NCBI GenBank assembly: GCA_947568835.1
Contig: OX387602.1
Coordinates: 6,604,570-6,668,569 of the forward strand
Direction: 5' to 3'
From: Protonemura montana
Lineage: Eukaryota; Arthropoda; Insecta; Plecoptera; Nemouridae
Length of the DNA stretch: 64,000 bases
In this document: positions 4,882 through 7,800 of the stretch, piece by piece
Position numbering within the stretch: position 1 is the first letter of the stretch
Layout of the letters: each line of letters opens with the position of its first letter
The notes under the pieces: model-generated
What the model saw: only the letters and a program-made list of their open reading frames with translations
Databases searched by the model: none
Told to the model about the DNA's origin: nothing
Position numbers and translations under genes: made by a program

Positions 4882-7800
4882 TTATATAATTCCAATCTTG
4901 TTAGCGACGTCAAGAGCATCGTAATCCCTCGCAAGTCGGACGTACGCCTTCTTCTTGCCATCGGGCCTGGAACAGAGCAAACAGAACCACATTTGTACAA
5001 GGAGTAGTTGCAATGACACTAAAACAACACACCACGGTGTGTTTTAGTTTCAGTTTCGAGTTAATGAGTGTCTATCACTGGTATTCAGAGAGATTCCCAC
5101 TCATTGATTCATCATATTATAACATTATCTGGCTCTCCAGTCAGAGAGCTATTTAAATTTAAAACGAGCGTTTTGTCTTAGCGCAGTGAACAAAACGATC
5201 TTATCCAGTGGTTTTTGATACTCTGTGGTCTTTTCCACTTAGATATTTGGGGTAAATCAGCAGCTATAACAAATGATCTACTTAACTGTATCAGTGGCAA
5301 TTTAAATGCAAAGTTGCGGAACTGAGTACGAAAAAGAAAGACACTGTACTCACATTTTGCAACAACCCTTTTAAACGTTAGAAAATTGCATTTCCAGTCT
5401 TCCTCTTTCACAGTAGTTGCAAAATATTTCAAAAATTAGTTCTCACTTTTTTGGTGGGATTTTTATAGCAGCAGCTTAATAAGACTTCTAACGAGCCCTT
5501 TGGTAAATTCTACTTCAAATTACAAATGCTTGTGCTTACAAAAACATTTTAATGTTATTACTTATTATAAACCCTAATACTCCTTCAAAGTACGTTTTTG
5601 ACCCTAAAAATTAATCAAGTTCCCAATTGGACACCCACTAAATAATACAAGATTCTTCAAGTTTTTTTTTCTGATTTTGATTTCTTTCCAGATTCTCACC
5701 TGATGAGAGTGTTGACTTTGGCAACATCGATATCATACAGCTTCTTAACGGCAGCTTTGATGTGGTGCTTGTTGGCCTTGATGTGGACGATGAAGACTAG
5801 TGTGTTGTTATCTTCAATCTTCTTCATCGCTGCTTCAGTAGTCAACGGGTACTTGACAATGTTGAAGGCATCCATGCTGCAAGAAACAAGTTGACACTTT
5901 AGAATGGGTAAAACACAAAACATCTAAATTCACATGGAATACATAGAATTCACATCTATCATCTAATTTATGATGAATCAAATTGAAGAACAGGAGAATG
6001 TCTATGACCCTTTAGTTACAGGAAGAGGAAAGGCAGTAAATCTGATTTTAACTGCAAATGGGCAATTGCAATATTATTTTACGTTTAGTGTTTATATAAA
6101 AATGTATGAAATTGTCTTTCTGCATTTATTTCCACCGTTGTTAGCCCAATGTAAAACAAAACTTGTATAGTGCAATTTTAAGTGCAATTAAAATATTTTC
6201 AAAGATAAGTTAGTACAAGGTAAGTATGCGCAATGGATGTAAAGAACATAGCAGCATCAAATCAGCGTTGTGTATTTTTGACCTCACATATTTCTCAGAG
6301 AGATTCCCACAATGTGATCATCATATTTGATAAAACTGCTTGGATTTTTTGAAGGGGTCGAAAATGTTATCACATGCAATAAGGTGGCATGGTTGGTTCT
6401 GGATCTTTAAAAAACCACTCGACAAATCGACTATATAAATCGAATAAAATCCATTTTGTTCCTTGGTTCGAACAGGCCCACAAAAACTGTCCGTAGCCCT
6501 CCTGAAACAGCATGGCATTCAACTCACCGACTCCTGTGTGGAACCGACTTCCTCGGGTACTGGGGGCTCTTGGGGATGCAGAAAGTCTTCGGGCGGTGGA
6601 AGTGCACCGAAGTCCTGATCTTTCTCGTACGCGTTCCATAGATACCCTTGATCACCTGTAAACAAAACAAGAACAGCTCTTAAACCAGCAGAAGCGACCA
6701 GGTTTCAAAAAAGAAATAGGTGCAGTAACAAAACAAGGACAATGAAAATCAGTGGTGTGTAAATGCATCTTCAACATTATCAGAGAGATTCCCACAAAAA
6801 ATCATCATGAGTTCATCATTCCTCATTTATAAAAATGCAAATTAAGAAGGGCTAAACCATAGAAAAAAGAAAGGTTAGGTAGAAGCCTAACGTTATACAA
6901 TCAACGTGTCTTGCAGCAAAATAGTTCTCCCATGTGCCAATCTGCTCGCTAGTAGTAGACACAACGTTTAGTTAAAAAAACCCATAGTTCATACTTGCCT
7001 GCTACGAGCGCTAGAAGTCCCTTTCAATTCAACTGTATTCCTAGCACTTGTAGCAGGCAAGAATAAACTCCAGATTTTTTTAATCGGCAGTACAAACTGG
7101 CGCGCAGATTGGCACATGCGAGAACTATTTGAGAGAACTACATTGGGAGAACTTTAACCTATCTTTTTTCTAAGGTTAAACCAATGTAGCTGCTTTTCAC
7201 CAGCTAACAAGGTGATCGGTCATAGACGTTGGTGCCAAAGTAGGTAGTGAGAAAATAAATAAATTGCTAACTAGTACAAATTATATTTTGTTGAAACTTA
7301 TTTAAATAGTGATTTGTGATAATAGTGTTAATAACATTACTACTACCTCAAAAATTAACATAACCGATCAGATATCAGTACAGATATTAAAAACCCATTG
7401 ACAAAAAAATGTACAACTAGCTTACCTTCTTCTGTGTTTTCAGTGCCTTGCTGAGAGCGAGTTGCTTCCTCTTCTTCTCTGCCTTGGTGAGTCCCTTGAC
7501 GCCAGCGACATCCTTTTTACCCTTGGCGGCTCCAGCCTTGGCGGCAGCTCCCTTTACAGGGGTCTTGGCCGCTCCCTTTGCAGCGGGCTTGGCTCCCTTC
7601 ACTGGGGTCTTCGCAGCTCCCTTGGCTGCAGGCTTGGCAGCTCCCTTCGCCGCAGGCTTGGCAGCCTTAGCAGCCTTAGCGGCACCTTTGGCAGCGGGCT
7701 TAGCATCAGGCTTAGCCGCAGCTTTCTTGGCGCCCTTAGGGGCAGCGGGCTTCGAAGTTTTAGAGGTAGAGGCGGCGGCTCCAGCGGCGGCACCAGCAGC

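Follow-up and report, generated by a model that had tools for sequence, protein, structure and literature searches.

Three predicted box C/D snoRNAs sharing one 28S guide in successive introns of RpL23A

Why would three successive introns of one ribosomal-protein gene carry the same short block of sequence? The question arises from RpL23A on the minus strand of contig OX387602.1 of Protonemura montana, within the window analyzed here (the whole stretch of 64,000 nucleotides [nt]). On the sequence evidence, we hold with high confidence that introns 2, 3, and 4 of this gene each contain a predicted box C/D small nucleolar RNA (snoRNA) and that the three are copies of a single guide for 28S rRNA. 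An identical 16-mer, GTGGGAATCTCTCTGA, composed of the guide and its D' box, was found once in each of these introns on the sense strand (minus-strand positions 6795-6780 in intron 2, 6310-6295 in intron 3, and 5100-5085 in intron 4), and “three copies” refers here to these three exact 16-mers. Intron 1 was without it. Across the home genome (258,480,905 bases in 34 contigs), exact matches numbered three, all of them in RpL23A introns, where about 0.12 would be expected by chance (arithmetic with equal base frequencies), and the reversed pattern used as a control gave no match. The initial annotation had proposed three C/D candidates with one guide in introns 2 to 4, and this proposal is borne out by the three exact 16-mers and by boxes that stand in order at every locus.

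The host gene is defined by its reading frame, its splice sites, and a match to L23A. Its coding part (8606..4882, minus strand) comprises five exons at 8606-8573, 7910-7426, 6655-6528, 5876-5700, and 4966-4882, separated by introns 1 to 4 at 8572-7911, 7425-6656, 6527-5877, and 5699-4967; all 4 introns are of the GT-AG type, and the frame of 302 amino acids is closed. The top match of the product among solved structures was 60S ribosomal protein L23A of 4v6w (chain entry 4v6w_CX; E 6.7e-77), which we take to be the Drosophila ribosome, and this match covered residues 24-302, including the long basic N-terminal extension.

All four introns were scanned for RTGATGA followed by CTGA starting 40 to 110 nt downstream. 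On the sense strand, only three loci were returned, in four rows since two C boxes occur at the intron-2 locus; the same scan listed no antisense candidate whose terminal stem reached 4 base pairs (bp), weaker antisense candidates being unlisted. From C box ATGATGA to D box CTGA, the candidates in introns 2, 3, and 4 measure 71, 63, and 66 nt, and each accordingly shows the RUGAUGA and CUGA boxes of a box C/D snoRNA within a stretch of 60-100 nt. The intron-2 candidate (6749..6819, minus strand) has its C box at 6819-6813, a second C box at 6808-6802, the guide at 6795-6784, D' at 6783-6780, and the D box at 6752-6749, and is closed by a terminal stem of 8 bp, G-U included, with arms at 6827-6820 and 6748-6741. 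The intron-3 candidate (6262..6324, minus strand) has its C box at 6324-6318, guide at 6310-6299, D' at 6298-6295, D box at 6265-6262, and a terminal stem of 7 bp, G-U included; in the intron-4 candidate (5050..5115, minus strand), the corresponding elements lie at 5115-5109, 5100-5089, 5088-5085, and 5053-5050. The coordinates place the ends of the D boxes 93, 385, and 83 nt before the 3' splice sites of introns 2, 3, and 4. C'-like motifs were seen in the intron-2 copy (TTGAAGA) and the intron-4 copy (TGATAGA); C/D snoRNAs are described in PMC6770171 as needing a terminal or internal kink-turn. The two C boxes of the intron-2 copy (6819-6802) are spaced by 11 nt, a pattern that would fit duplication of an 11-nt unit; the upstream one adjoins the stem, and the downstream one lies at about the same distance from the guide as does the C box of the other copies. 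The stretch 5150-4990 of intron 4 folds better than its shuffles (z -2.41, 1/200) because the copy there is flanked on each side by a strong hairpin, of which that on the 3' side begins next to the D box.

What would these RNAs guide? The same paper gives the rule that a C/D guide targets the nucleotide paired with its fifth position (PMC6770171). Counted from D', nucleotide 1 is unpaired, and Watson-Crick pairs with 28S run over positions 2-12 in introns 2 and 3 and 2-13 in intron 4, such that position 5 lies opposite the second A of the 28S segment GAGATTCCCAC (GAGATT) in all three copies. The complementarity to 28S put forward in the initial annotation therefore stands in its register, with one correction: the last T of the proposed guide is unpaired, so the duplexes come to 11, 11, and 12 bp in introns 2, 3, and 4. 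The D' side of every copy thereby has the form of a box C/D guide, with about 10 nt or more of pairing and the target at the fifth nucleotide. In an rRNA sample of 4,634 nt, which consisted of 18S, part of 28S, and a 28S fragment and lacked a large portion of the 28S 3' half, the D' side paired best at the predicted 28S site for 3 of 3 copies, a pairing equaled by 1, 1, and 0 of 60 shuffles. The 20-mers on the D side had no convincing target in that sample: their best pairings, of 9, 7, and 9 bp, were equaled by 9, 55, and 5 of 60 shuffles, and a second target in this partial rRNA was therefore rejected. The 18S/28S unit in this sample looks decayed when set against the usual 28S sequence. Since the D' side stands out in this rRNA, unlike the D side, each predicted RNA has a single supported guide, and the “diverging second guides” of the initial annotation are left without support. 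Descent of the guide from an inserted piece of 28S was likewise rejected because the complementarity ends at 11-12 nt.

The target segment occurs at two places in the home genome, both with 28S-like flanks; one of these matches LSU in Rfam (233.6 bits, model 1891-2388), and the other, L007, had no LSU match at gathering. The ribosomal DNA encountered in the assembly consisted solely of 28S pieces (L004 and L006 on contig C4, L005 and L007 on C12) and one 18S/28S unit (L010 on C11). In the C11 unit, the 18S match is long (2,373 bases for model 130-1831), whereas the 28S match stops at model 1888, close to the start of the C4 28S piece at 1891.

Are these RNAs members of a known family? SNORD79 (RF00152) carries the same guide block, TGGGAAUCUCUCUGA, on its D' side, and in its consensus, UGGGAAUCUCUCUGA, the block lies at the same distance from D' as in the RpL23A copies, which suggests through the shared guide that both would target the same A of 28S, presumably A3809 in human numbering. 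In Drosophila snoMe28S-Am2634 (RF00537), the guide core GGAAUCUC occupies the same position with respect to C and D', although that model has GAGUAGGAAUCUCA and a D' box UUGA, as against GTGGGAATCTCT and CTGA in the RpL23A copies; fly 28S presumably carries the base change that matches this difference. RF00537 scored 23.8 bits for intron 2 and 32.4 bits for intron 4 against a gathering threshold of 50. The copies are probably functional counterparts and homologues of SNORD79 and snoMe28S-Am2634, but because their Rfam scores lie below gathering, we do not file them as certified members. Our literature search matched no paper to the Me28S-A2634 or Am2634 snoRNA, or to SNORD79 together with 28S A3809. 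In PMC2653536, a chicken homologue of SNORD79 is listed as the guide for 28S-A3319 through a 13-nt element at D'; it has one copy in a GAS5-like non-coding host, in contrast to the three in RpL23A.

Several observations weigh against the snoRNA interpretation as a whole. No Rfam family reached gathering in the window; RF00152 scored 30.0, 37.7, and 29.6 bits for introns 2, 3, and 4 against a gathering threshold of 47 (E 0.00068 for intron 3), and its alignment to the intron-4 copy puts the model's C box off ATGATGA. Single copies folded no more stably than their dinucleotide-shuffled versions (z 0.83, 0.35, and -0.42 for introns 2, 3, and 4), the C' boxes are poor, most so in intron 3, and the terminal stem found by the scan in the intron-4 copy is just 1 bp, compared with 8 and 7 bp in introns 2 and 3. 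The assembly yielded no intact 28S, and another two conserved 28S patterns had 0 matches in it. Finally, matches to the 12-mer guide with two mismatches or fewer are no rarity within the window, with 6 found versus 4.03 expected and the same count attained in 22 of 100 shuffles; the signal is the three exact guide matches and not the near-matches. The low Rfam scores, ordinary fold energies, and near-matches that are far from rare could be taken to mean that the block is a product of chance or a different type of element that these introns share. We regard this as very improbable given that C, D', and D boxes are ordered at 3 of 3 loci, with stems at two, that the 16-mer is confined genome-wide to these loci, and that the pairing with 28S falls in methylation register.

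The short stem bears also on whether all three copies work. Just one or two of them might, the stemless intron-4 copy being a duplicate that is processed poorly or decaying, and the strong hairpin beside its D box could compete with the ribonucleoprotein fold. Yet its boxes, guide, and D' are intact even though the remainder has diverged to about the level of chance, and its duplex with 28S is the longest of the three at 12 bp; we consider such a partial loss unlikely.

How, then, did three copies come to lie in one gene? In the columns of box, guide, and D', every pair of copies is identical at 27 of 27 positions. In the remaining aligned columns, identities fall to 27/51 for introns 2 and 3, the closest pair, 21/52 for introns 2 and 4, and 18/57 for introns 3 and 4 (53, 40, and 32%), to be read against about 30% expected from composition and with the alignment inflating the observed values. 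Outside the copies, the introns had no common match at E < 0.05 (lowest 0.058, introns 3 versus 4). A fourth copy was not found in the window or in five further loci with a sequence-only model built from the three. That the copies share almost solely functional sequence suggests that the duplications are old and the copies under selection; for old duplicates that keep chiefly their working parts, selection on each copy would be the best explanation. The near-chance identity of the intron-4 copy to the others and the introns' lack of any other common match would also suit copies that did not derive from each other within RpL23A, having arrived independently (for example, from another host) or representing an ancient family of which the obligatory motif alone was kept. 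However, the genome offers no further exact 16-mer that could have been the source, 27 of 51 other columns remain identical between introns 2 and 3, and duplication in cis is the usual route for C/D families, according to PMC8178906; an independent origin therefore seems improbable to us. The expansion of a guide family described in the initial annotation is thus mostly right as duplication within one host but not as regards second guides.

Precedents for several copies in one host appear in PMC2653536 and PMC8178906. Chicken U15, in RPS3 introns 4, 5, and 6, and chicken U58, in RPL17 introns 4, 5, and 6, are both described in the former as one guide present three times in successive introns, likewise those of a ribosomal-protein gene, albeit with other guides, in other hosts, and in vertebrates. 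RpL23A itself is tied to snoRNA production in Drosophila, where, according to PMC5932544, Or-CD15 derives from an exon that Uhg7 has in common with RpL23A and the fused transcript RpL23A-RB is made; there the snoRNA cluster belongs to the downstream non-coding host, whereas here the copies lie in RpL23A introns. The guide, the 28S site, and the mode of expansion are all already known, and the triplicated guide is an ordinary example of a known family.

The least ordinary thread of the locus is a match between the intron-2 copy and its own host. Just past D', positions 6782-6769 are complementary to 5867-5854 at the start of exon 4 over a continuous 14 bp with one G-U, a pairing attained in 0 of 100 shuffles, narrowly (30.5 versus 30.0 for the best shuffle); the other two copies had nothing of the kind with exon 4, as 81 and 45 of 100 shuffles reach as much. 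A second role of the intron-2 copy, in which the exon-4 duplex could tune splicing beside intron 3, is a long shot; if true, it could also couple guide supply to L23A supply. Exon 4 had no match in the viral contigs searched, and a single bacterial locus, in a metagenome-assembled genome, matched it at 44% identity. Intron 2 further contains a palindromic element at 6850-7182, resembling a miniature inverted-repeat transposable element, with arms at 6850-6877/7155-7182, 6919-6953/7096-7130, and 6972-7027/7028-7083. A sub-threshold MIR862 match at 6972-7083 (35.1 bits, gathering 100) was rejected because it is the hairpin of this element, and a SNORD30-like match on the other strand at 5966-6050 (26.1 bits, E 0.91) was rejected as chance.

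No view of snoRNA biology is changed by the RpL23A copies. With them, a widespread 28S guide gains an insect-like host and an arrangement of three copies in one host, and copies that keep little besides guide and boxes are useful for annotation. Together, they bear on the question of why several guides are retained in cells for a single rRNA site.
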